Positions 4,584-36,913 of a stretch of 64,000 nt of DNA are shown here, piece by piece. The notes beneath the pieces are model-generated. The model did not search any database. It was not told the origin of the DNA and saw only the letters and a list, made by a program, of their open reading frames with translations. The translations under genes and the position numbers were made by a program. Source of the stretch: Streptomyces sp. H39-S7 (GTDB lineage Bacteria; Actinomycetota; Actinomycetes; Streptomycetales; Streptomycetaceae); contig NZ_JAPVLU010000026.1 in NCBI RefSeq assembly GCF_027158205.1, positions 62,001-126,000 of the forward strand, given 5' to 3'. Positions within the stretch are counted from its first letter, which is position 1. The number at the start of each line of letters is the position of its first letter.

Positions 4584-5654
4584 CTACGAGGCGGGCACGG
4601 GGACCGGCAGGTCCCAGTACGCGTAGTCGTAGGAGTCGCCCGGGGACACGTCGACCTCGACGGAGTCCGTGGAGGGGTCGGGGACGACCACGGTGAAGTC
4701 CAGCGACCGCTCGGCGCCGGGGGCGAGCTGGCCGCTGAAGCCGTCCTGGCCCGAGATGTCCTTCAGCGGGTTGTCCCCCGCCTGGTCCGCGTAGGCGGAC
4801 ACGTCCGCGTAGTCCAGGTTCTCGGTCTTGCTGCCGGTGTTCTTCAGCGTGACGGTGAACCTCATCGCGCTGTCGCCGCCCTCGGCGCTCTTGGCGGTCG
4901 GCGCGAGTCCCGGGTCCCGCACATCGTCGACCGTGACCTGCAGCCCGCCGTCGTACTCGGCGGTCTCGCCGACGGACAGCGGCGAGCCGTAGCTGCCCTG
5001 GTCGGGTCTGCGCATCCCGTCGCTCTCGTCCAGCCAGCCGTTCCCCACCGACACGCCTATGACGACCAGCATTCCGGCGGACAGCACGGTCGCGGTGACG
5101 CCGAGGATCAGCCCGGCCAGCGCCTGCCCGGGATTGGTCGACTCCCCGCGCTTGGCGATCCGCCGTCCGACGATCCCGAAGATGATCGCGGCGATGCCCA
5201 GCGGGGCGCCGAGGACCGCGAAGAAGCACATGACCGACAGCACCGACCCGACGATGCCCAGCACGAGCGCGGTGAGGCCGTAGCCGTTGCGCGGTGCGGG
5301 AGTCCAGCCGCCGTACGGGCCCATCGGGTACCCCGGGTACCCCGGGTAGCCGGGGTAGTCCGGGTAGCCGGGGTAGTCCGGGTAGCCGGGGTAGTCCGGG
5401 TAGCCGGGGTAGTCCGGGTACCCGCCGCCCGCGCCCGTGTACGGCTCGTACGGCGGGGGCGGGTACTGGCCGCCCGGCGGCGGGCCCTGCTGGTCGAACA
5501 GCGGACCGCTCCCGTACCGATCCGTTCCCGGTGCCAGCGGCGGCAGCGGCGGGCCCGTGTCCGCCGGGCCCGGCCCCGGTCCGGCCTGCGGCGGGACGTC
5601 CGCGGGCGGCGCCCACGGGTTGTGGGGCGGGGGGCTGTCGGGCTGGTCGGACAT
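4584..5654 (-). CDS. DUF4190/DUF4352-type membrane protein with YPDYPG repeats
   Basis: 356-aa protein of unknown function. Start ATG at 5654 (MSDQPDSPPP) follows AGAGGAAGG. A cytoplasmic, proline/glycine-rich N-terminus contains a run of YPDYPG hexapeptides (about residues 78-110). Two hydrophobic helices of DUF4190 type come next (NGYGLTALVLGIVGSV and GQALAGLILGVTATVL). An extracellular C-terminal half resembles DUF4352 immunoglobulin-like domains (RFTVTLKNTGSKTEN). Such proteins are common in Streptomyces and lack an assigned role. Convergent with the PucR gene. Confidence 0.75.
   Translation of the reverse strand: MSDQPDSPPPHNPWAPPADVPPQAGPGPGPADTGPPLPPLAPGTDRYGSGPLFDQQGPPPGGQYPPPPYEPYTGAGGGYPDYPGYPDYPGYPDYPGYPDYPGYPGYPGYPMGPYGGWTPAPRNGYGLTALVLGIVGSVLSVMCFFAVLGAPLGIAAIIFGIVGRRIAKRGESTNPGQALAGLILGVTATVLSAGMLVVIGVSVGNGWLDESDGMRRPDQGSYGSPLSVGETAEYDGGLQVTVDDVRDPGLAPTAKSAEGGDSAMRFTVTLKNTGSKTENLDYADVSAYADQAGDNPLKDISGQDGFSGQLAPGAERSLDFTVVVPDPSTDSVEVDVSPGDSYDYAYWDLPVPVPAS
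5330..5421. repeat. 18-bp tandem repeat coding YPDYPG
   Basis: Four to five near-identical 18-bp units (core GTAGCCGGGGTAGTCCGG on the plus strand) lie inside the DUF4190 gene and encode the hexapeptide repeats. Being in frame, copy-number change would alter linker length without breaking the protein. Confidence 0.85.
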
Positions 5655-5773
5655 TGCGGCCTTCCTCTGACTACGTCCGGCAATGCTATGGCCTGCGTAC
5701 GACAGGGGAAGGCCCTCGGACAGCATGGGTGCCGTCTACGATGGCACCACCGCTGACTTGCTGGAGGATCCGC

Positions 5774-6817
5774 ATGACCGACACCGCAACCGGACGTGTA
5801 CCCGGCCTCGACACCTTCATCGCCGGGCTGCCCAAAGCCGAGCTGCATGTCCACCATGTCGGATCCGCGTCGCCGAGGATCGTCGCCGAACTCGCCGCCC
5901 GGCACCGGGACTCCCGGGTGCCCAGCGACCCCGTCGCGCTCGCCGAGTACTTCACCTTCCGCGACTTCGCCCACTTCATCCAGGTGTACCTCTCCGTCGT
6001 CGACCTGATCCGCGACGCCGAGGACGTACGGCTGCTGACCTTCGAGATCGCCCGCGACATGGCCCGGCAGAACATCCGCTACGCCGAGCTGACCGTCACC
6101 CCGTTCTCCTCGACCAACCGCGGCATCCCGGACCACGCCTTCGTCGAGGCGATCGAGGACGCCCGCAAGGCCGCCGAGTCCGAACTCGGCGTCGTGCTGC
6201 GCTGGTGCTTCGACATTCCCGGCGAGGCCGGTCTGGCCTCCGCGGAGGAGACCGCGCGGATCGCGACCGAGCTGCGGCCGGACGGGCTGGTCAGCTTCGG
6301 GCTCGGCGGCCCCGAGATCGGTGTGCCGCGCCCGCAGTTCAAGCCGTACTTCGACCGGGCCCGCGCGATCGGCCTGCACAGCGTCCCGCACGCCGGCGAG
6401 ACCACCGGCCCCGAGACCGTCTGGGACGCGATCAACCTGCTCGGCGCCGAGCGGATCGGCCACGGCACCAGCTCGGTCCGCGACCCGCGGCTGCTGGAGC
6501 ACCTGGCCGAGCACCGCATCGCGCTGGAGGTCTGCCCGACCTCCAACATCGCCACCCGCGCGGTCCGCACGCTGGAGGAGCACCCGCTGCGGCAGATGGT
6601 CGAGGCGGGCGTGCTCGTCACCATCAACAGCGACGACCCGCCGATGTTCAGCACCGACCTCAACAACGAGTACGCGATCGCCGCCCGGCTGCTCGACCTG
6701 GACGCGGCAGGCGTCGCCGGGCTGGCGAAGAACGCCGTCGAGGCGTCGTTCCTCGACGCTCCGGGCAAGGCGCGGCTCGCCGCCGAGATCGACACGTACA
6801 CGGCGGCGTGGCGCTAG
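5774..6817 (+). CDS. Adenosine deaminase family enzyme, probable 6-amino-6-deoxyfutalosine deaminase
   Basis: 347-aa metal-dependent deaminase of the ADA family. The zinc ligands are in HVHHVGSASP (H25 and H27), the catalytic region is PHAGETTGPETV and the late ligand region is INSDDPPMF. The HVHHVGS variant, in place of the usual HVHLDG, matches in my memory the Streptomyces enzymes (SAV2595 type) that deaminate aminodeoxyfutalosine in the futalosine route to menaquinone, which Streptomyces uses. ATG at 5774 follows GGAGGA. The stop overlaps the start of the next gene. Plain adenosine deaminase activity is the alternative. Confidence 0.8.
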   Translation: MTDTATGRVPGLDTFIAGLPKAELHVHHVGSASPRIVAELAARHRDSRVPSDPVALAEYFTFRDFAHFIQVYLSVVDLIRDAEDVRLLTFEIARDMARQNIRYAELTVTPFSSTNRGIPDHAFVEAIEDARKAAESELGVVLRWCFDIPGEAGLASAEETARIATELRPDGLVSFGLGGPEIGVPRPQFKPYFDRARAIGLHSVPHAGETTGPETVWDAINLLGAERIGHGTSSVRDPRLLEHLAEHRIALEVCPTSNIATRAVRTLEEHPLRQMVEAGVLVTINSDDPPMFSTDLNNEYAIAARLLDLDAAGVAGLAKNAVEASFLDAPGKARLAAEIDTYTAAWR

Positions 6818-7557
6818 CGGTCGCCCACCGCGGCGACCCGTACCGGCATCGCGAGAACACGCTGCCGTCGCTGCGATCCGCCCTGCGGGCGGGCGCCGAC
6901 GCGGTGGAGATCGACGTACGCCTCACCCGCGACGGCGTCCCGGTGCTCCTGCACGATCCGACGCTGAAGCGCCTGTGGGGGCACCGGGTCCCCGTGGCCG
7001 AACTCACCGCCGAGCGGCTGCGGCGGCTCACGGCCGACGGCGTGCCCACGCTGCACGAAGCGCTGACGGCCGTCGCCAAGCACGGCACCGCCCGCGCGCT
7101 GCTCGACCTCACCGCCCCGGACCAGGCCGCCGCCTCGGTGGCCGCCGTGCGGGACGCGGAGGCGGAGTCCCGCACGTACTACTGCGGCGGGGCCGCCGCC
7201 ATGTTCGCCGTCCGGGAGCACGACCCGGCCGCCGAGATCGCCCTGACCTGGACGACCTCGGCGCTGCCGGCGCGGGCGCTGCTCGACGCCGTCCGGCCGC
7301 GCTGGATCAATCTGCGCTTCGGCCTGATCGACCGGCCGCTGGTCCGCTGGGCGCACGAGCGGGACCTGCTCGTCGCGGCCTGGACCGCCGACCTGCGGCG
7401 CACCATGTCGCGGCTGCTCGACCTCGGCGTGGACTCGGTGACCACCAACCGCCTGGACGTGCTGCGCGACCTCCTGGACGGCACGCCCCGGCCCGGAGTC
7501 ACAGGCCCACGATCAGATTCCACCGGTCCTCGAACTCCGGGCGCTCCTCCGGCGTGA
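6808..7557 (+). CDS. Glycerophosphodiester phosphodiesterase
   Basis: 249-aa GDPD-family protein that would hydrolyse glycerophosphodiesters to glycerol-3-phosphate and an alcohol. The catalytic pattern is visible at the N-terminus: AHRGDP, RENTLPSL, a metal-binding EIDVRLTRDG and LLHDPTL. The GTG start at 6808 overlaps the stop of the deaminase by 10 bp, indicating translational coupling. No signal peptide, so a cytoplasmic enzyme is expected. Its 3' end overlaps by 59 bp the 3' end of the convergent PotD-like gene. Confidence 0.82.
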   Translation: MALAVAHRGDPYRHRENTLPSLRSALRAGADAVEIDVRLTRDGVPVLLHDPTLKRLWGHRVPVAELTAERLRRLTADGVPTLHEALTAVAKHGTARALLDLTAPDQAAASVAAVRDAEAESRTYYCGGAAAMFAVREHDPAAEIALTWTTSALPARALLDAVRPRWINLRFGLIDRPLVRWAHERDLLVAAWTADLRRTMSRLLDLGVDSVTTNRLDVLRDLLDGTPRPGVTGPRSDSTGPRTPGAPPA

Positions 7558-29831: not shown

Positions 29832-29854
29832 ATCCAGGTAGCTGGACTTACTCC
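29827..29854 (+). other. attL: left junction of the integrated element
   Basis: Core GCCTCATCCAGG at 29827-29838 resembles GCCTCGTCCAGG at the right end. Element-side arm GGACTTACTCC is at 29844-29854, 12 bp from the TC dinucleotide at 29830-29831. The matching arm GGAGTAAGTCC lies at 36882-36892 at the same distance. Confidence 0.88.
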
Positions 29855-29904
29855 ACCCAGAACGCCAGCACGTAGGGTGCAGGCCTGAGCAGGAGGAGCA
29901 CAAC

Positions 29905-31548
29905 ATGGCAAGGGTCCTGGGCGCGCTGCGCCTGTCGAGAGCATCGGATGAGTCGACCTCGGTCGTTCGACAGAAGGCAGCCATCCAGCGATGGGCGGAC
30001 AGCCGAGGAGATACGGTCGTCGGTTGGGTGGAGGACGTAGACGTCTCCGGCGCCATCGCCCCATGGGAGCGACCAGGTCTCGGCCAGTGGCTCCCGTCGA
30101 CCATCGGTAAGGACGTAAGCGCAGTAGAGCTGCGTCTCGCATGGGAGATCTCCCGAGTCGATGAATGGGACATCCTCTGCGGGATGAAGCTCGACCGGAT
30201 CTCCCGGCGAGTGCTGCACATCGCTCAGCTTGTCGAGTGGGCTGGGAAGCACAACAAAGAGATCGCGGCAGCCGAGGACGGCTTCGACCTTTCCTCACCC
30301 ATGGGCAAGATCCTGTTCCAGCTCATCGCCGCATTCGCCGAGGGCGAGCTGGAGGCGATCAAGTTCCGTGCGAAATCCTCATACGCATACCTGATGAAGA
30401 CCGGTCGTTGGCGCGGCGGCTTCGTCCCGTACGGGTACCGGGCTGAGAAGGACGCCGAGGGAGACGGCTGGAAGCTGGTACCGGACGAGTACGGGACGGA
30501 GACAGCGAAGGTAGTCCGAGAGGTCGTTCGACGGACACTCGAAGGCGAGGCGACGAATGCCGTGTGCCGATGGCTGAATGAGAGCAAGACCCCGAGTCCA
30601 CTGGATGCTCAGCGCATCCGGAGCGGGAAGGAGTCGAAAGGTGCTGTCTGGCGTGTGGGCAACCTTCTGAAGATGCTTCGCTCTCACACACTTCTCGGTC
30701 GAGTCGAAATGACCGAGGAGGTCATACTCCCGGACGGCACCAAGGAGAAGCGGACTCGCCTCGTGCGGGACGCCGAGGGGCTGCCGCTTCAGCGGGCGGA
30801 GCCGCTCATCAGTAAGGAGGAGTGGGATCAGCTTCAAGCAAAGCTGAAGGAGAACAGCAATCCTCGGGCAGGCAACCGCTTCGACCGTTCCCCCTTGCTT
30901 CGAGTGGCCTACTGCACCTGCGGCAAGGCGCTGTATCGGAACAACGGCCGCAACCAGATGTACTACCGGTGCAGCTCTCGCAACATCACCGGCGCCGAGT
31001 GCGACTCGACTGAAGCCATACAGGCGACGCTCTTGGAGAAGGTCATTGAGGAGGCGTTCCTCAAGGCCGTTGGTCACGCTGAGATCGTCCGCCGAGTGTT
31101 TCGCCCCGGAGTCGACCACACTCAGGACGTCACCGAGGTGACACGCGCTCTGGCCGAACTCCGCGAGGACCGCGAGGCAGGGCTCTACTCCTCCGAGCTC
31201 AGCAAGAAGGAGTTCCGAGAGGAATACCTGCGGCTCGAAGCGAAGCGAGAGACACTCGCCGCCATGCCAGTAGTGCCGGACCATTGGGAGGAGACCTCTA
31301 CCGGCCAGACGTACGCGGACAGGTGGGCACAACTCACGACCTCAGCGGAGAAGAACAAAGAGCTGCGCGAGGCAGGCGTAAAGGCGATCGTCCACACCAG
31401 GAAAGTCCCGCCCATGACAGCCGCCCAGCTCATGGAGCCCAAGGGGCATGAGGGCATGTGGCAACACGCGGTCGGCAGGGTTCAGCTCCTCATGCCGATG
31501 AATCTGCGTGACCGAGTCCGCAGCCTCGCTGCCGAGCACATCGTGTAG
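29905..31548 (+). CDS. Large serine recombinase (site-specific integrase)
   Basis: 547-aa integrase of the phage/ICE serine type. The resolvase-like catalytic domain has the nucleophile in LRLSRASDES (S11) and the helix-E region AAFAEGELEAIKFR (about 142-155). A recombinase domain follows (about 175-310), then a zinc ribbon with C337, C339, C356 and C366, and a probable coiled coil (about 410-450). ATG at 29905 follows AGGAGGAGC. It sits 50 bp from attL, as usual. It would catalyse attP x attB integration; excision would need a directionality factor, which I could not identify. Confidence 0.96.
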   Translation: MARVLGALRLSRASDESTSVVRQKAAIQRWADSRGDTVVGWVEDVDVSGAIAPWERPGLGQWLPSTIGKDVSAVELRLAWEISRVDEWDILCGMKLDRISRRVLHIAQLVEWAGKHNKEIAAAEDGFDLSSPMGKILFQLIAAFAEGELEAIKFRAKSSYAYLMKTGRWRGGFVPYGYRAEKDAEGDGWKLVPDEYGTETAKVVREVVRRTLEGEATNAVCRWLNESKTPSPLDAQRIRSGKESKGAVWRVGNLLKMLRSHTLLGRVEMTEEVILPDGTKEKRTRLVRDAEGLPLQRAEPLISKEEWDQLQAKLKENSNPRAGNRFDRSPLLRVAYCTCGKALYRNNGRNQMYYRCSSRNITGAECDSTEAIQATLLEKVIEEAFLKAVGHAEIVRRVFRPGVDHTQDVTEVTRALAELREDREAGLYSSELSKKEFREEYLRLEAKRETLAAMPVVPDHWEETSTGQTYADRWAQLTTSAEKNKELREAGVKAIVHTRKVPPMTAAQLMEPKGHEGMWQHAVGRVQLLMPMNLRDRVRSLAAEHIV

Positions 31549-31570
31549 TCCTCGTTCGAAGGCTCGACTG

Positions 31571-31596
31571 GCCCCGCTCTCACCCGAGGGCGGGGC
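31571..31596 (+). terminator. Terminator after the integrase
   Basis: 7-bp stem GCCCCGC / GCGGGGC with a 12-nt loop, 22 bp after the integrase stop. Confidence 0.7.
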
Positions 31597-31881
31597 TTCG
31601 TCATGTCCGATCAGATGGGCTGAGGCTCAGCCGGCCAGGTTGACGACTGAGCAACCGGCCGTGTAAGAAGATCCTCCCGCTCCTTCGAGGAGCGGACACC
31701 GTAGCTCCCGTCGTGTGACGCCGGTAGAGCTGGCCACTCCGTGAAGGGGCCGCCATCCCAAGGGGCTGGCAGGGGAAGCCGAGGGCACCCCGAAGCGCAG
31801 GACGGTACTGCGCGACTTCCACTCACCCGCCGAGGTACAGCTACACGCTGCCCTCGGCCGCCGCCGGGAGGTCGCCACCCC
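31597..31881. other. Gap between integrase and the small HTH-like gene
   Basis: No gene is supported. An open frame from 31741 reads into the next gene but its translation before 31882 is Pro/Arg/Gly-rich and unlike a conserved protein. GGGAGG at 31866-31871 is the probable ribosome site for the TTG at 31882. Confidence 0.5.
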
Positions 31882-32238
31882 TTGACCAGCACCATCAACT
31901 TCGGCCCCGGCCGCCCGTGGGGCGGAGTATCTCAGCGCGAGTACCAGCGCATGGCCCAAGACCCTCGACACCAGCTCGCCTACCGCATCCACTTCGCGGC
32001 CCTCGGTTGGGCCGACCGCCACGGACACGCAAGCTTCGGTCCCGGCAAGCTCGCCGCACTGCTCGGCAAGGAGGGCAAGTCCCTGTCCGACCAGAGCACG
32101 AACAACGCCCTGGCCCGCGCCAGGGAGCTGGAGCTTGTCTCGCCCCGATCGGGGGCCGCTTGCCTTGTCGTCCCCTCTCACGTCTTCCAGAAAAGGAAGG
32201 GCGCACCCGTGCCGTGCCGCCTGCACCTCGATCGCTGA
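31882..32238 (+). CDS. Small HTH-like protein of actinobacterial mobile elements
   Basis: 118-aa protein. From TTG at 31882 it begins with TSTINFGPGRPWGGVSQREY and continues with AYRIHFAALGWADRHGHASF, NNALARARELELV and a C-terminal CLVVPSHVFQ. I recall similar proteins beside integrase and replication genes in Streptomyces integrative elements, where they look like winged-HTH initiator or regulator domains. The alternation of charged helices with a LV-SPRSGA-CLVV ending fits a winged helix. Role unproven; replication initiation or control of the integrase are possibilities. Confidence 0.7.
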   Translation: MTSTINFGPGRPWGGVSQREYQRMAQDPRHQLAYRIHFAALGWADRHGHASFGPGKLAALLGKEGKSLSDQSTNNALARARELELVSPRSGAACLVVPSHVFQKRKGAPVPCRLHLDR

Positions 32239-32832
32239 CTACGTCTCTCGCGTGTAGCCAGCACACGCCTGACGTGTACCGAGACGAGATCTCACCTGCG
32301 GAGACGTTCGCGTCTTCTCTTGTCTTTTTGGCCTCACAGCTTTTGGCCTCACAGCGCAGCCCCGAAGGGGAGAAGGAAGCCAAGTACGTACTTACACGTC
32401 AGCGGTAAGGAAGGTGGGGCGCGGTAGCGCCCTCAGTCGCAAGGGCACCGGCGAAGAGACCCAAGCGACAGGCGCGGCCTCCGGCCGCACAACCGGAAGA
32501 TACTTCGCACGAGCGGTCCCGAAGGGGCCGACATCAGGAAGACCAGGGAGCTGACCAAGTGGGGGCGCTACCGCGCCCCGCTACCCCAAGGCCCCAGGGC
32601 AAGGCGCTCGGGCAAGGGGCCGCTACGCGGCCACAACGGGAAGCAACAAACGGCAAGCCTCGAAGGGACCTCACTCTTGTGCCGTCCCTGAGTGCTCGCC
32701 ATACCGGGCACAGCCCTCCTACCTGCATCTTCTTCGCCGCTGCCTCACTCCTCCGGTGTCTGACGGGGTCTGAAACCGTGGCACGATCTTGGCCGGTAAG
32801 ACATGGCGGTCTGGACTTGCCTGCCATGGGGG
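32239..32832. other. 594-bp noncoding stretch rich in palindromes
   Basis: No convincing gene. Contents: a tandem duplication of TTTTGGCCTCACAGC (32326-32355), the perfect palindrome AAGTACGTACTT (32382-32393), and five compact hairpins at 32417-32432, 32474-32488, 32514-32530, 32562-32579 and 32618-32632 with 6-7 bp stems and 3-4 nt loops. May be a structured RNA, regulatory zone or origin remnant. Confidence 0.55.
32326..32355. repeat. 15-bp tandem direct repeat
   Basis: TTTTGGCCTCACAGC occurs twice without spacer (32326-32340 and 32341-32355). Confidence 0.95.
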
Positions 32833-33423
32833 TCATACCCCACCCCCGTTCGCCTCCTTGGGAGGCTCGGTTACCTGCTCTCTCCTCAGTTGCACAAGAA
32901 GAGTGCGGCAGATCCAGTCGAAGATTCCGGAGCCTGCCTGATACAACTCGTCGGCCAAGGTTTCCGCTTCTTCGTAGGAGATCTCGATGACGGCCGCAGC
33001 AGTACGCCTCTTGCTGACAAGCGCATACGCCGCGCTGGGTAGCGGCTCAGTCTCTGGCACATTCAGAGGCGTCCACATGCCATGCACCAAGTGGTTTCGT
33101 CGGGCAAGCAAAGGCTTGAGGGTCGCAAGTTTGGAGCGGCACTCGGTGCGCTGCGCTTCCGTGATCTCCCGGTTGATCTTCACGAGTGCCGTACACATAT
33201 CGATCAGCTCATTTGCTCCAAGCCCCGCAGCCACAACCTCGGCATACCTGCTGTCGATGAGGCAGGTCATGAGTCGGCGAAGGTAGTACTCCAGCGCAGC
33301 ACTCCCCCTTGCCACCTCGCCCACCAACAGAGACATGCGTTGTTGCACCTCCTCCATCTCCTCGTCCGATCGGAGGATCGGAAGCCCATCGAGACCGCTT
33401 GGCGGGACCGCTTCGTCAGACAT
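32833..33423 (-). CDS. Hypothetical protein with a HEPN-like RN-x3-H motif
   Basis: 196-aa, largely helical protein. ATG at 33423 (MSDEAVPPSG); no Shine-Dalgarno sequence is evident. It carries LLARRNHLVHGMW with R109, N110 and H114, the R-x4-H arrangement of HEPN-superfamily RNases (compare the RN..LVH motif of HepT toxins). A conserved-looking four-helix layout flanks the motif. HEPN proteins act in toxin-antitoxin, abortive infection and CRISPR accessory roles; no nucleotidyltransferase partner is adjacent. The gene is divergent from a resolvase across a 161-bp region filled with GTCTC repeats. Function not known; HEPN assignment is by motif only. Confidence 0.6.
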   Translation of the reverse strand: MSDEAVPPSGLDGLPILRSDEEMEEVQQRMSLLVGEVARGSAALEYYLRRLMTCLIDSRYAEVVAAGLGANELIDMCTALVKINREITEAQRTECRSKLATLKPLLARRNHLVHGMWTPLNVPETEPLPSAAYALVSKRRTAAAVIEISYEEAETLADELYQAGSGIFDWICRTLLVQLRREQVTEPPKEANGGGV

Positions 33424-33442
33424 GCCGAGGAGCGTACCGGGC

Positions 33443-33581
33443 GTCTCACAATCCTTCGTTTTCGGGACGGCGAGACCAGGCTCGGAGCGCGTCCGTTTCG
33501 CCCACGCTCGACCGTCTCGCAACCCGTCTCGAAACATCCCCCTCAGGACTGGCTTTCGGGACACGTTTGTGAGACGGTCTC
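33443..33581. promoter_or_regulatory. Divergent control region with six GTCTC/GAGAC half-sites
   Basis: GTCTC occurs at 33443, 33514, 33526 and 33577, and GAGAC at 33472 and 33571. The last pair forms the palindrome GAGACGGTCTC (33571-33581), ending 3 bp before the resolvase start. Candidate operators or recombination subsites. Confidence 0.55.
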
Positions 33582-33584
33582 GTC

Positions 33585-34418
33585 ATGACTACGACCACCC
33601 CGGCCTCACAGGTCGAACGCCACGCTTGCCCGAAGTGCGAAGCCCCCGCCGGTAGCCCCTGCCGTACGACGACGGGCAAGGTGGCAGCGAACTACCACAC
33701 GGGCCGCTTCGCCTTGGTGCCCGCCCTCAAGGCGGAACTGACCGTGAAGACTCCGGCTGACCGCAACCCCGGCAAGGCGTGGACACAGTGCGCTCCTGTC
33801 ACACAGGTGCCCGACGCGATGCCGGGCGCAGCGATCCGACTGGGCTACGCCCGTTGTTCAACCGTTGGGCAGGAACTTCAGTCCCAGTTGGACATGCTTG
33901 CCCGTGCCGACTGCACCCGCGTCTTCTCGGAGAAGATCAGTACCCGTGTGAAGGAGCGGCCGGAACTGGAGAAGGCGCTCACGCTGGCACGGGAGATCAA
34001 GGCAGCCGCACCGAATCAGCCGGTCATCTTGACCGTGGTCGAGATGAAGCGGCTTGCCCGCAGTGCGTCAGAGCTGATGACGCTGTCTTCCACCCTTCAG
34101 GCGGACGGCATCCAACTGGAACTCCTGTCCGGTCCCCTTCAGGGTGTGTACGACCCGAACGGGGCCGGTGCCATTGTGTTCGCCGTCCTCGCCGTCAGTG
34201 CCGAGGTGGAGCGGGAAGGCATCCGGGAGAAGACGTTGGAAGGGCTGGAGGCTGCGGCCCGTAAGGGCAACGTCGGTGGGCGTCCGTCCGTCATGGACGA
34301 TGACACCTTGGCCGTAGCCCGTGCCCGACACGCCAAGGGAGACAGCGTCACAGCCATCGCCAAGGCCCTGGGAATCGGGCGCGCCACGCTGTACCGCCAT
34401 TTGGGAGAGAGCGCCTGA
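33585..34418 (+). CDS. Resolvase/invertase-type serine recombinase with N-terminal zinc finger
   Basis: 277-aa protein in three parts. Residues 10-45 form a CxxC...C...H module (C15, C18, C26, H38), probably zinc-binding. Residues 85-225 are a resolvase catalytic domain with the nucleophile in YARCSTVGQ (S92). Residues 235-275 hold a Hin-like HTH (VTAIAKALGIGRATLYRHL). ATG at 33585. A small recombinase of this kind usually inverts or resolves local sites rather than integrating. The zinc module fused in front is unusual relative to classical Tn3 resolvases. No ribosome site is visible. Confidence 0.85.
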   Translation: MTTTTPASQVERHACPKCEAPAGSPCRTTTGKVAANYHTGRFALVPALKAELTVKTPADRNPGKAWTQCAPVTQVPDAMPGAAIRLGYARCSTVGQELQSQLDMLARADCTRVFSEKISTRVKERPELEKALTLAREIKAAAPNQPVILTVVEMKRLARSASELMTLSSTLQADGIQLELLSGPLQGVYDPNGAGAIVFAVLAVSAEVEREGIREKTLEGLEAAARKGNVGGRPSVMDDDTLAVARARHAKGDSVTAIAKALGIGRATLYRHLGESA

Positions 34419-34442
34419 GACAGGCGCACAGGGACACAGGCA

Positions 34443-34467
34443 GGCCCCCGACATCGCGTCGGGGGCC
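34443..34467 (+). terminator. Terminator after the resolvase
   Basis: 10-bp perfect stem GGCCCCCGAC / GTCGGGGGCC with a 5-nt loop, 25 bp after the stop. Confidence 0.8.
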
Positions 34468-34519
34468 GCTGTCATGCATGGGCGCATGACGCCGTGGTTC
34501 GAACCTCGCCTACCGGCGT

Positions 34520-34542
34520 ACCCCCCTCAGCACACTGGGGGT
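34520..34542 (-). terminator. Small hairpin after the DUF7848-like gene
   Basis: 6-bp stem ACCCCC / GGGGGT with an 11-nt loop, just past the stop at 34550 on the minus strand. Confidence 0.45.
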
Positions 34543-34549
34543 CTGTCGG

Positions 34550-34774
34550 TCACTCGTCCCGGACCACAATCGCGAACGATGTGCAGAGGCGCCGGAATCC
34601 TTTGTGACCGCTCCGGCCGGTGTGGCTCATGCACTCCACATCGACCGCCACGCCGTCAGTCGAGGGCGTGGCTGCCCATTTGCAGTGAAGGCACTCCGCT
34701 TCGAAGGTCACGTCAGTGTCCGGGTGTCGCGTGATCCTGTGCCTCACGTACCGCATGACGGAACGCGCCATCAT
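34550..34774 (-). CDS. Small cysteine/histidine-rich protein, DUF7848-like
   Basis: 74-aa protein (from ATG 34774, or 72 aa from ATG 34771). It contains AECLHCKW and CMSHTGRSGH, giving ligands C28, C31, C48, H51 and H57, so zinc binding is likely. I recall the CMSHTGR...F pattern from small Streptomyces mobile-element proteins now called DUF7848. The start overlaps the stop of the preceding gene (ATGA), indicating coupled translation. Function unknown. Confidence 0.7.
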   Translation of the reverse strand: MMARSVMRYVRHRITRHPDTDVTFEAECLHCKWAATPSTDGVAVDVECMSHTGRSGHKGFRRLCTSFAIVVRDE

Positions 34775-34974
34775 TGGACCCCGTGGTCTTCCCGCAGATG
34801 CGTAAGGAGCACCACGTTCGCATCGGACACCTTCGAGTAGTCCCCGACCGATCGGGCGTTGGTTCGAATCAGGGTAATGCCGAGGCATTCCTGACAGCTC
34901 GATACCGCGTTCGGTTCCTGGAGTGGAGTCGTCAAGTTCACCGGACCTGACATCGTCGTCTTCGGTGTGCTCAT
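34771..34974 (-). CDS. Small CxxC...HxxxxH protein of the element
   Basis: 67-aa protein with good coding support: ATG at 34974 behind GGGGAGG. Potential zinc ligands are C27 and C30 (SSCQECLGI) and H59 and H64 (LLTHLREDHG). First gene of a two-gene operon; its promoter region holds the inverted repeat AACGTGCAT / ATGCACGTT. Function unknown; a DNA- or protein-binding mini zinc finger is plausible. Confidence 0.65.
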   Translation of the reverse strand: MSTPKTTMSGPVNLTTPLQEPNAVSSCQECLGITLIRTNARSVGDYSKVSDANVVLLTHLREDHGVQ

Positions 34975-35022
34975 TCTGTACGACCTCCCCGGCTGCGTGT
35001 GTGCCAGGGAATGATGCCGTGG

Positions 35023-35053
35023 AACGTGCATTCTTTCGCAGTCCATGCACGTT
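35023..35053. promoter_or_regulatory. Inverted repeat AACGTGCAT-N13-ATGCACGTT upstream of the two-gene operon
   Basis: Perfect 9-bp arms at 35023-35031 and 35045-35053. The half-site recurs upstream of the three-gene operon at 36689-36697 (ATGCACGTT) and nearly at 36673-36681 (ATGCATGTT). Likely a binding site for an element-encoded regulator. Confidence 0.6.
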
Positions 35054-35065
35054 GTTGGGTAAAGG

Positions 35066-35899
35066 TCATGAGCGGCAGGCAGCCGACCACTCTGCGAGCA
35101 TCGCTCTTGCTTCCCCATCGGATGCCGCGTATTCCTCGTACTGGGCGAACTCGTCGAGGTAGCTCCGTACGTCTCGGCTGTCGCGGAGTACGAGACTTCC
35201 GGCCGATGTCTCGATGGTGACCAACGAAGCGTCGTAAACGGTGAACGTATTCAACGGGACTCGCGAGGTGGGGGCACCCACTGGGATCACTCCGATACGC
35301 ACGTTCGGGAGGTAGGTCAACGAGGAGAGCCGGTCCATCTGCTCAGCCAACGCCAAAGGTGAAACGACCGGCCATCGAATGGCCTGCTCGGTCAGAATGA
35401 AGCTGAACTGTTTCGACACGTCATACAGAATGGCTTGCCGTTCCAGCTTTCCCGCCACTGCCTTACTCGTATCCGCCGGGGAATGGGCGAGGCTCGCCCG
35501 TACGTACTCCGGAGTTGCAAGAAGGCCCGTCACCATCGAGAGCAGGAAGTAGCGCATGTGCGTCGAGGACGCTTCAAGAGACCTCAGTTCCGCTTGTCTC
35601 GTCCCAAGTCCCTTACGACGCAACCCCCGAAGGTTTCGCCACTCGGTATGGGCCAACCTGGCAAGGGCGGCCACTTCGGCAATCATGCTGGGTGGTGCGT
35701 CGAGGGCCCTCAAGATCTGCTCGACGTCGACCAGGGACGGCCGTGTCCGCCCGTTCTCGATCCGACTCACCTTGGACTGAGACATGTTGCAGCGCGCGGC
35801 AAGCCGGTCCCCGGAGAGACCGGCCCGCTTGCGTAGCTCTCGAAGCAGTGAAGCGAGTTCCGTTCCCGACTCGCCGAGCCGCTCAGCTTCGAACGTCAC
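35066..35899 (-). CDS. XRE-family regulator with DUF5753 C-terminal domain
   Basis: 277-aa protein: N-terminal XRE HTH (RLAARCNMSQSKVSRIENG, about residues 32-50), then a DUF5753 domain (about 95-270) starting at FLLSMVTGLLATPEYVRA. This class pairs with small partner proteins in Streptomyces and often acts with them as an antitoxin-like or developmental regulator. GTG at 35899 overlaps the DUF6879 stop (GTGA). Best candidate to bind the ATGCACGTT sites in the element. Confidence 0.85.
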   Translation of the reverse strand: MTFEAERLGESGTELASLLRELRKRAGLSGDRLAARCNMSQSKVSRIENGRTRPSLVDVEQILRALDAPPSMIAEVAALARLAHTEWRNLRGLRRKGLGTRQAELRSLEASSTHMRYFLLSMVTGLLATPEYVRASLAHSPADTSKAVAGKLERQAILYDVSKQFSFILTEQAIRWPVVSPLALAEQMDRLSSLTYLPNVRIGVIPVGAPTSRVPLNTFTVYDASLVTIETSAGSLVLRDSRDVRSYLDEFAQYEEYAASDGEARAMLAEWSAACRS

Positions 35900-36411
35900 T
35901 CCCCCACGTACTCCAAGAATGGCACCGACTCGGCGATGGCGATTCGCTGGTATTCGACGAACGGGGCCGGATCACCCTCGTACAGTTCTCGGCCGATCTG
36001 CGCACCGTTGCCCTCGTAGTGCATGAGAACAACCTTCGAGCGGTCGAACATCCAGAAGTCGCGAACCTCCGGCAACGGGTTCTCTCGATCCGTCACGTCC
36101 AGAATTCGGATCTCTTCGCCGGCTCGCACATGCGGAGCGTAGTATCGGGAGAACTCGAACCGCAGATACTCGGAGAGTGGTTGAGTCACGATGTGCACTC
36201 GCCCCTTACTCTTCCCCTCCCCTCGTATCCGATTCAGGCTTTCCGTGTACGGGGACGAGTAGGAATTCAGGTCGACTCGCCTACCGGCCCGGAACGCTTC
36301 GAGCTCGTCGGCCTCCTGCGGCATGAGGTACTGCGGCAAGGTCTCCAGTCTCCATGCCTCCGACTGGAATTCCCGCAGCGCTGTCCGCCACTCGTCACCA
36401 TCCAAGAACAC
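35896..36411 (-). CDS. DUF6879-family protein
   Basis: 171-aa protein. GTG at 36411 follows GGGAGG at ideal spacing. Family-like segments include FLDGDEWRTALREFQSEAWR, LETLPQYLMPQE, RVHIVTQPLSEYLRFE and VVLMHYEGNG. DUF6879 proteins sit beside XRE/DUF5753 regulators across Streptomyces and have a partner-like or effector-like genomic habit, but no activity is established. Coupled to the regulator by a 4-bp overlap and to the small upstream gene by a 17-bp overlap. Confidence 0.78.
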   Translation of the reverse strand: MFLDGDEWRTALREFQSEAWRLETLPQYLMPQEADELEAFRAGRRVDLNSYSSPYTESLNRIRGEGKSKGRVHIVTQPLSEYLRFEFSRYYAPHVRAGEEIRILDVTDRENPLPEVRDFWMFDRSKVVLMHYEGNGAQIGRELYEGDPAPFVEYQRIAIAESVPFLEYVGE

Positions 36412-36601
36412 GAATCGCCTCCCGAAGAACGCTCTCCGGAATCTCCACAAGCCCCTCCCCCTGAGGCGGAGTGAAGGCGCCGGACACGTCACCTTGCACA
36501 ACGAACGTTCCTCGGTCGGTCCGGTACACGTTCGGGCAGTCGTCTTCGCCGCACTCCCCGTTTCCGTTACCGGTAAGCCGAGTCAGCTCCTCGCGTGCCA
36601 T
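36395..36601 (-). CDS. Small hypothetical protein heading the DUF6879-XRE operon
   Basis: 68-aa acidic protein. ATG at 36601 follows AAGGGGG. It contains GECGEDDCPNVYRTDRGTF with a C-x4-C pair (C17, C22) and FVVQGDVSGAF, then EIPESVLREAI. I recall very similar short proteins (C...CPN.Y.T..G.FVVQG) preceding DUF6879 genes in other Streptomyces. Function unknown. Confidence 0.7.
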   Translation of the reverse strand: MAREELTRLTGNGNGECGEDDCPNVYRTDRGTFVVQGDVSGAFTPPQGEGLVEIPESVLREAIRVLGW

Positions 36602-36881
36602 ACGAAACCCCCTTGCTCGCGCCCCGGTTGGGGCGTTGGACACGACCGTACGAGCGTCACAGTCGACCGTCCATGCATGTTCGTGGGTATGCACGTTGTT
36701 GCATGAACCCGTGGCCTTCGATGCAGCGCGTCCGTCGCCGCCCCATACGGGCGCGTGGTGGGCGTCTGCGACCGGGACGACGGGATGGCCTGGGCAGGCA
36801 GCCGACAGGGCGCGAGACGGCCACTGGGGGGCCATGGCGAAACGCCCGCGCCGATCGGGAGCACTGGTGTACCTTGATCGC
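36602..36881. promoter_or_regulatory. Promoter region of the three-gene operon, up to attR
   Basis: No gene is supported. Direct repeats ATGCATGTT (36673-36681) and ATGCACGTT (36689-36697) lie 16 bp apart, 72 bp upstream of the start. The second is followed by GTTGCAT, making an extra ATGCA...TGCAT palindrome. The remainder to 36881 shows nothing recognisable. Confidence 0.5.
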
Positions 36882-36913
36882 GGAGTAAGTCCCTCTACCG
36901 CGCCTCGTCCAGG
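36882..36913 (+). other. attR: right junction of the integrated element
   Basis: Element arm GGAGTAAGTCC (36882-36892), 12 bp, then core GCCTCGTCCAGG (36902-36913) with the TC dinucleotide at 36905-36906. Joined to the left end it forms an attP with perfect 11-bp inverted arms. The single core difference (G here, A in attL) falls just after the TC, so G is the chromosomal base. Confidence 0.88.

Follow-up and report, generated by a model that had tools for sequence, protein, structure and literature searches.

The window analyzed here is a stretch of 64,000 nucleotides from Streptomyces sp. H39-S7 (contig NZ_JAPVLU010000026.1), and the gene of interest lies in it within a mobile element, whose features are listed in Table 1. 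In comparison with the intact comM-like gene of four relatives, homology breaks off at 29836-29841 and is found again from 36900-36902, and the G+C content is 63.5% in the element as compared with 70.4% in the window. By our reading of its two domains, the interrupted gene is comM-like (Mg chelatase-like), and the serine integrase element appears to split it near the Walker B motif; thus, the comM-like gene is interrupted in this strain. No transposase could be identified by Pfam among seven element proteins searched, and an integrase was found instead. The first-pass annotation of this DNA had described a small helical protein containing RRNHLVHGMW, encoded opposite a resolvase within a mobile element. 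The description was accurate with regard to the ORF (ATG at 33423, TGA at 32833-32835, 196 residues, helical), to the motif (residues 108-117, with R109 and H114 correctly numbered) and to the divergent serine resolvase gene. A longer frame of the same gene is open from a GTG at 33564; the ATG start is common to the close relatives at loci L007, L020 and L021. The gene is under purifying selection (dN/dS of 0.29 between the window and L007 and 0.21 between the window and L020).

Table 1. Features of the element and of the region around the HEPN-like gene (window positions)
Feature	Position	Strand	Evidence
Whole element, ~7.06 kb, in comM-like gene (Mg_chelatase, ChlI domains)	29838..36900	.	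Homology break in four relatives; Pfam
Large serine integrase, 547 aa	29905..31548	+	Pfam Resolvase, Recombinase, Zn_ribbon_recom
ORF, 165 aa, convergent with HEPN-like gene	31741..32238	+	91% in L007; no match in L020; no Pfam match
Conserved non-coding stretch downstream of HEPN-like gene; possible structured RNA or terminator region	32463..32832	.	Aligns with L007 and L020
HEPN-like protein gene, 196 aa	32833..33423	-	ORF; 25-member alignment; HepT profile match; models; purifying selection
R-x4-H motif codons, R109-N-H-L-V-H114	33082..33099	-	R and H invariant in 25/25 members; position 110 is N (18) or H (7)
Intergenic region read as res site (161 bp)	33424..33584	.	GAGAC/GTCTC repeats; conservation in L007 and L020; half-site upstream of 18/32 resolvase loci
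Putative 28-bp res site I, CGTCYCR-N14-TGAGACG, next to HEPN-like gene	33442..33469	-	Single match in window, 0 in 100 shuffles
Serine resolvase, N-terminal zinc-finger-like domain, C-terminal HTH_7	33585..34418	+	Pfam Resolvase 1e-25, Phage_zn_bind_8 9e-13, HTH_7 1.4e-9
XRE-type regulator with DUF5753	35066..35899	-	Pfam; L020 relative 62%
DUF6879 protein	35896..36501	-	Pfam 4.9e-43; L020 relative 58%

The HEPN-like gene and the resolvase gene were found together in other elements. At the DNA level, positions 31562-34477 of the window were 90% identical to L007 (2.9 kb) and positions 32463-34445 were 76% identical to L020 (2.0 kb), and beyond this module the only noteworthy DNA match was with the XRE-DUF6879 part of L020 (69%). 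The L007 element has another serine integrase and is inserted in a gene that, by reading, is of the MFS type. Direct repeats of 49 bp, 94% identical to each other, flank the L020 element, with one copy overlapping a tRNA-Leu gene, and no integrase was found among four of the element's proteins searched. At L021 (67%, tblastn), the HEPN-like gene lies without a resolvase ~1.1 kb from a tyrosine integrase gene. Thus, the four closest members occur in or beside elements with differing integrases or integration sites, three of them with the resolvase, and the HEPN-resolvase module recurs in three different elements (comM-like gene, MFS-type gene and tRNA-Leu). The view of the gene as element cargo is therefore borne out in a stronger form than first stated. 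Two side observations concern these relatives. The L020 element (L020:347-9015, ~8.7 kb between the 49-bp repeats at tRNA-Leu(gag)) carries JmjC-like and aldo-keto reductase genes beside the module. At L021, a gene on the same strand ~100 bp upstream of the HEPN-like gene (6083-6871, +) encodes a 263-residue protein, with no Pfam match and no plasmid relative, in which R-N-S-T-K-H followed by G is present near the C-terminus; it is possibly a second HEPN-like partner.

Taken alone, the R-x4-H motif is weak evidence and unremarkable for the composition of the protein: R-x4-H arose in 15%, and R[NDH]-x3-H in 1.1%, of 20,000 shuffles. It is the conservation across homologues that places the motif far above chance. 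Both R109 and H114, together with G35, were invariant in all 25 aligned members (the window's included), among which identity falls to 18%. Position 45 was E in 21 members and D in 4, position 113 was V, I or A, and position 115 was G, A or S; W stood three residues after the H in 16 members, and R occupied position 49 (compare Ex3[KR] below) in only 12. Outside the alignment, the homologues L043 (RNTVVH) and L019 (RNEVIH) carry the motif, and homologue L005/L033 (84 aa) stops short of it. Sequences left out before these counts were L005/L033, L043/L052 (missed by the member search), L019 (partial), and L044 and L035 (both on the contig of L007); L053 and L054, as well as L047 with an over-long reading frame, were included in one alignment (A3) and left out of another (A5).

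No credible match to the 196-aa protein could be found in Pfam, NCBIfam, PHROGs or PADLOC, and PF01934 matched neither the protein nor anything else in its genome. When all 25 members were compared with Pfam, PADLOC and PHROGs, only weak matches to one or two members each were obtained, and Abi_2 was absent from the Pfam matches at E 0.1. Two PADLOC matches, each to a single member, were too weak to be counted as evidence (CARF-HEPN, E 0.006; RT-associated HEPN, 0.024). Likewise, a single-sequence search of solved structures gave no credible relative (0.76 or worse), and the profile matches to solved structures (best 0.0014) were designed proteins and were rejected as relatives. The family is thus one that is not modelled in the libraries searched.

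A more specific comparison was made by hhalign with 22 HepT sequences, which had been kept from 26 candidates gathered here and chosen for the motif and an open frame. After removal of mostly-gap columns from both alignments, the family matched HepT with a probability of 66% and a score of 31.5 (E 5.5e-5), the two motifs being in register within the 67 aligned columns, and with 60% in the other direction; the raw alignments of the first run had given 38% (E 3.3e-4). In 100 column shuffles the score reached at most 15.4, about half of that observed, with a best probability of ~1%, and a reversed profile gave 0.6%. The match was lost once the motif columns were removed (0.6%), and its 66% falls below the 75-98% that is typical of the 2013 HEPN survey (PMC3710099). 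Matches to HEPN_RiboL-PSP (7%) and HEPN_Apea (0.8%) were based on only 3 and 2 sequences, and these two sets matched HepT itself with just 0.6% and 1.9%; a resolvase profile used as a control gave 0.3-0.4%.

According to the description of the superfamily in the same survey (PMC3710099), HEPN domains are marked by R-x4-6-H with a polar residue after the R and with the motif ending helix 3, often by a further acidic residue, commonly as Ex3[KR], that helix 2 contributes close to the motif, and frequently by an insert between helices 2 and 3. The present family has the R-x4-6-H motif, a polar residue (N or H) after the R and, in predicted models, a motif placed at the end of the helix that precedes the final long helix. 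An acidic residue is also present at position 45, a candidate for the further acidic residue of the HEPN signature. In comparison with HepT toxins (PF01934), in which the motif reads, for example, RNxLVHxY, that of the family reads R[NH]xxVHG and likewise falls towards the end of the second-to-last long helix in the predicted models. On the other hand, HepT toxins have an MNT partner and none was found here, a beta hairpin follows the motif here, and the Y two residues after the H of HepT is not kept. Unlike the HEPN domains of Csx1, no CARF domain was matched, and no CRISPR genes were noticed in the element.

Two AlphaFold2 models of members (23-24% identical) had pLDDT 84.7 and pTM 0.74, and pLDDT 86.5 and pTM 0.81, respectively. 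With helices numbered by their order in these predicted, not solved, structures, the two models agree in topology: the motif closes a helix, after which come a beta hairpin and then the final long helix (helix 102-113, strands and helix 150-174 in model 1; helix 73-97 with R93/H98 and helix 129-153 in model 2). In VIA-align, the HEPN domain of sacsin was the first match to model 1, where sacsin and HepT HEPN domains made up 6 of the 50 rows, and the seventh match to model 2, where HEPN structures made up 11 of the 50; both sacsin alignments had Z 8.0 (110 residues at 3.8 A and 105 residues at 3.1 A). The HepT entries, taken to be such in part from their titles, had Z 5.4-7.6. Two further structures, 1wwp and 1ylm, were counted as HEPN following their treatment in the survey (PMC3710099). 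It should be noted that unrelated helical bundles, both designed and natural, reached Z 8.3 as against 8.0 for HEPN; thus, these matches are compatible with HEPN and do not prove it. Foldseek returned nothing from the PDB at E <= 0.001 for either model, and no HEPN was among the matches listed. In BFVD, the only Foldseek match below 0.001 to model 1 was an unnamed 159-residue viral protein (A0A4Y5TZQ9, E 3.6e-4). Overall, the predicted fold is compatible with HEPN, the HepT profile match runs through the motif, and the two residues do not vary, so neither the conservation nor the fold refutes the first-pass assignment; membership of the family in the HEPN superfamily is well supported.

We take the region between the divergent genes to be a likely res site for resolvases of this clade. 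The motif GAGAC/GTCTC occurred 6 times in the 177 bases examined (33424-33600), as compared with 0.34 per 160 bases over the window, and 5 times in L007 and 8 times in L020 (192 bases examined in each). In the window, L007 and L020 alike, the HEPN-like gene is adjoined by a 28-bp imperfect dyad, CGTCYCR-N14-TGAGACR. In the window it is 18 bp from the start of the HEPN-like gene and 115 bp from that of the resolvase gene, and we infer that it is res site I. This pattern, derived from these very sequences, matched 8 of 127 loci, every one a copy of this module. The window itself gave no match in a strict test for 7-bp dyads, since the arms of its site are not identical. Exact 28-bp dyads with the half-site were present upstream of L085 and L076, that is, at 2 of the 12 nearest resolvase loci listed. 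The half-site TCTC[AG][ACT]AA or its reverse, searched within 260 bp upstream, was found at 18 of 32 resolvase loci (0.02 expected per locus from mononucleotide shuffles), lying between -135 and -171 in 11 of the 18, and was not found at the other 14; the resolvase starts had been extrapolated from alignments. These 32 loci comprise 30 (the window's own included) plus L007 and L020, with L057 and L058 counted apart despite identical upstream DNA. The half-site pattern had been chosen after inspection of eight loci, and it was present at 10 of the 24 that had not been inspected by then. No promoter consensus could be recognized in the intergenic region.

Resolvases of this clade are common among plasmids of actinobacteria, with 130 records, and a Tn3 transposase was near the clade resolvase in one of the five plasmid regions opened. 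A search for other R-x4-H genes opposite relatives of the resolvase was dropped, its scattered motif matches lying in ORFs without support. On one of the plasmids, from Kocuria rosea (L130, NZ_CP126484.1), a large 'HEPN domain-containing' protein is encoded at 4695-6173, its gene being the third one downstream from that of a resolvase with 60% identity.

The arrangement can be compared with that of Tn3 transposons. In those with divergent genes, as described in the sections of PMC7157771 that deal with this layout, res lies between the genes and contains the promoters, and resolvase binding represses them; toxin-antitoxin pairs adjoin res site I and tnpR lies at site III (PMC7157771, Lima-Mendez et al. 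2020). A HEPN-MNT pair at res is represented there by one published Tn3 example, TnSod9 (PMC7157771). As in those modules (PMC7157771), a serine resolvase and a likely res site are combined here with a toxin-like gene at one end and the resolvase gene at the other. In contrast, the present module has a single gene with no recognized antitoxin, it is borne by integrase elements with no transposase among the element proteins searched, and its resolvase has a zinc-finger-like domain. With regard to the earlier remark that no MNT antitoxin is adjacent and that any control must be of a different kind, no MNT nucleotidyltransferase was found by Pfam in the six other element proteins. The second part of the remark holds as far as the neighbours go, and the likely res site between the two genes is our candidate for such control.

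On the basis of these results, our preferred explanation is that the gene encodes a solitary HEPN RNase, carried as cargo of a resolvase-res module and probably expressed from res; taken as a whole, this explanation could fail about as readily as hold. In the chain of events that we infer, the protein is a solitary member of the HEPN superfamily, most likely a metal-independent RNase using R109 and H114, whose gene diverges with that of the resolvase from res and starts beside the presumed site I. Promoters in or near res would drive both genes, and resolvase bound to res would hold both at a low level. When resolvase is scarce, as might occur on entry into a new cell, after a change in copy number or upon loss, the HEPN protein would rise and cut RNA, which would slow growth or harm a competing phage or element, and the element could thereby be stabilized or protected. 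We consider HEPN membership the most secure part of this proposal, followed in order by the res function of the intergenic region, RNase activity, resolvase-controlled transcription from res and, finally, harm to the cell or to a rival element.

The distribution of the family bears on this explanation. In genome samples that overlap one another, homologues were present in 5 of 199 relatives (the window's genome included), 5 of 35 genomes of the genus (E 0.01), 15 of 394 genomes of the family Streptomycetaceae, 11 of 392 genomes of one genus sample and 2 of 396 genomes across the phylum (the window's own included). One locus in the genome contig collection matched the protein. With its own sequence as query, no relative of the 196-aa protein was found in plasmid, phage or viral contig collections; distant members used as queries retrieved two plasmid records and no phage match, and two members of the family are located on plasmids. 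Thus, in the samples searched, the family is sporadic and almost confined to Streptomycetaceae, and its rarity elsewhere is uncertain because only nine candidates per genome were scored in the 396-genome sample.

Its genes are lone genes. A partner conserved across the family was looked for and rejected, since no generally conserved neighbour was present within 3.5 kb in 26 loci; the resolvase accompanied the gene only in the window, L007 and L020. The commonest neighbour cluster, with overlapping and antisense ORFs set aside, consisted of regulator-like ORFs at varied distance in 5 of the 26 loci, which by reading are of the GntR type. As 22 of 25 members, including that of L021, have no resolvase within 3.5 kb, the family does not need a resolvase. 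Because most of the family lives without one, the protein must be tolerable at a low level or latent, and for this reason an effector triggered by infection has to be kept as an alternative. By this account the HEPN RNase would be a latent abortive-infection effector, activated by a phage component or a stress signal and harmless before that, and the resolvase would be a neighbour captured in one lineage. The lone and sporadic occurrence of the gene fits such an effector, as does the fact that six Abi systems have HEPN proteins, predicted to be RNases, as primary components in the part of the survey on such systems (PMC3710099). Against it are the lack of a good match in PADLOC, in which two element proteins were searched among the neighbours, the absence of relatives of the window's protein from the phage and viral collections searched, and the repeats kept in three elements, which it can explain only if they serve the resolvase alone. 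On balance, we consider this account somewhat unlikely.

An antidote might also have been overlooked, in which case the protein would be the toxin of a pair with either an RNA from the conserved non-coding stretch downstream or the XRE-DUF6879 pair. The stretch lies between convergent genes, contains several GC-rich hairpins and is kept with the HEPN-like gene in three elements, despite having no reading frame common to the window, L007 and L020; its predicted folding is slightly more favourable than that of shuffled sequences (z -2.1, 1 of 100, three sequences only). The RNA alternative has a precedent in AbiF of Clostridioides difficile, which in the account given in PMC12373285 is prophage-borne and neutralized by an adjacent RNA. 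Like AbiD/AbiF (Abi_2), the present protein is a HEPN protein on mobile elements with no recognized protein antitoxin. The differences are that AbiF has a neighbouring control RNA whereas a conserved non-coding stretch with a weak fold signal is found here, and that the family has no match to Abi_2 models. L021, however, has the gene without the stretch, the stretch had no match in Rfam or in the plasmid collection, and three sequences are too few for covariation. As for the XRE-DUF6879 pair, relatives were present in L020 (62% and 58%) and L026 (30% and 35%), together with a partial XRE match in L007 (27%); against this, XRE-DUF5753 genes were found within 3.5 kb in only 3 of the 26 loci. Such genes are common in these genomes. 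No other antitoxin was recognized among the element proteins searched, and no conserved ORF was found on the free side of the HEPN-like gene in the window, L007 and L020. A small ORF coupled to the gene (32836..32534, ATGA overlap with the HEPN stop) was rejected, its counterparts in L007 and L020 reaching a stop within a few codons. A pair with a hidden antidote thus seems quite unlikely.

A decidedly improbable reading is a one-gene addiction device, in which resolvase bound to res would be the sole brake, and multimers or loss would shift the resolvase:res ratio, free the RNase and penalize cells that do not resolve or keep the element. If true, the part of the 'antitoxin' would be played by a recombinase, whose target is DNA and not the toxin. 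Finally, it is very improbable that the protein is no RNase at all, being a HEPN domain that only binds RNA or a partner or a helical bundle resembling HEPN by convergence: the middling structural scores equalled by unrelated bundles, the lack of a matching family model, the dependence of the profile signal on the motif and the existence of probably non-catalytic HEPN domains agree with it, but the domains proposed as non-catalytic in the survey's discussion of them had lost the motif, whereas here R and H are unvarying in all 25 members and, in the predicted models, the helix preceding the final long helix closes with the motif, as described for HEPN (PMC3710099).

HEPN toxins are already known, as are Abi proteins with HEPN domains and the HEPN-MNT pairs of Tn3 transposons; the literature searched yielded no publication describing either this family or a res site occupied by a solitary HEPN gene. 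What is new here is a HEPN-like gene beside a likely res site, in what looks, from the sequence, like the slot of Tn3 toxin-antitoxin pairs. If our preferred explanation is right, it would add an unmodelled HEPN family scattered over Streptomyces genomes and plasmids, in which a lone toxin-like gene takes the position beside res that, in Tn3 transposons, belongs to full toxin-antitoxin pairs. The question raised for Tn3, whether promoters in res and the resolvase control the toxin gene, would then become open to experiment in a simpler setting, where each side of the site holds a single gene.
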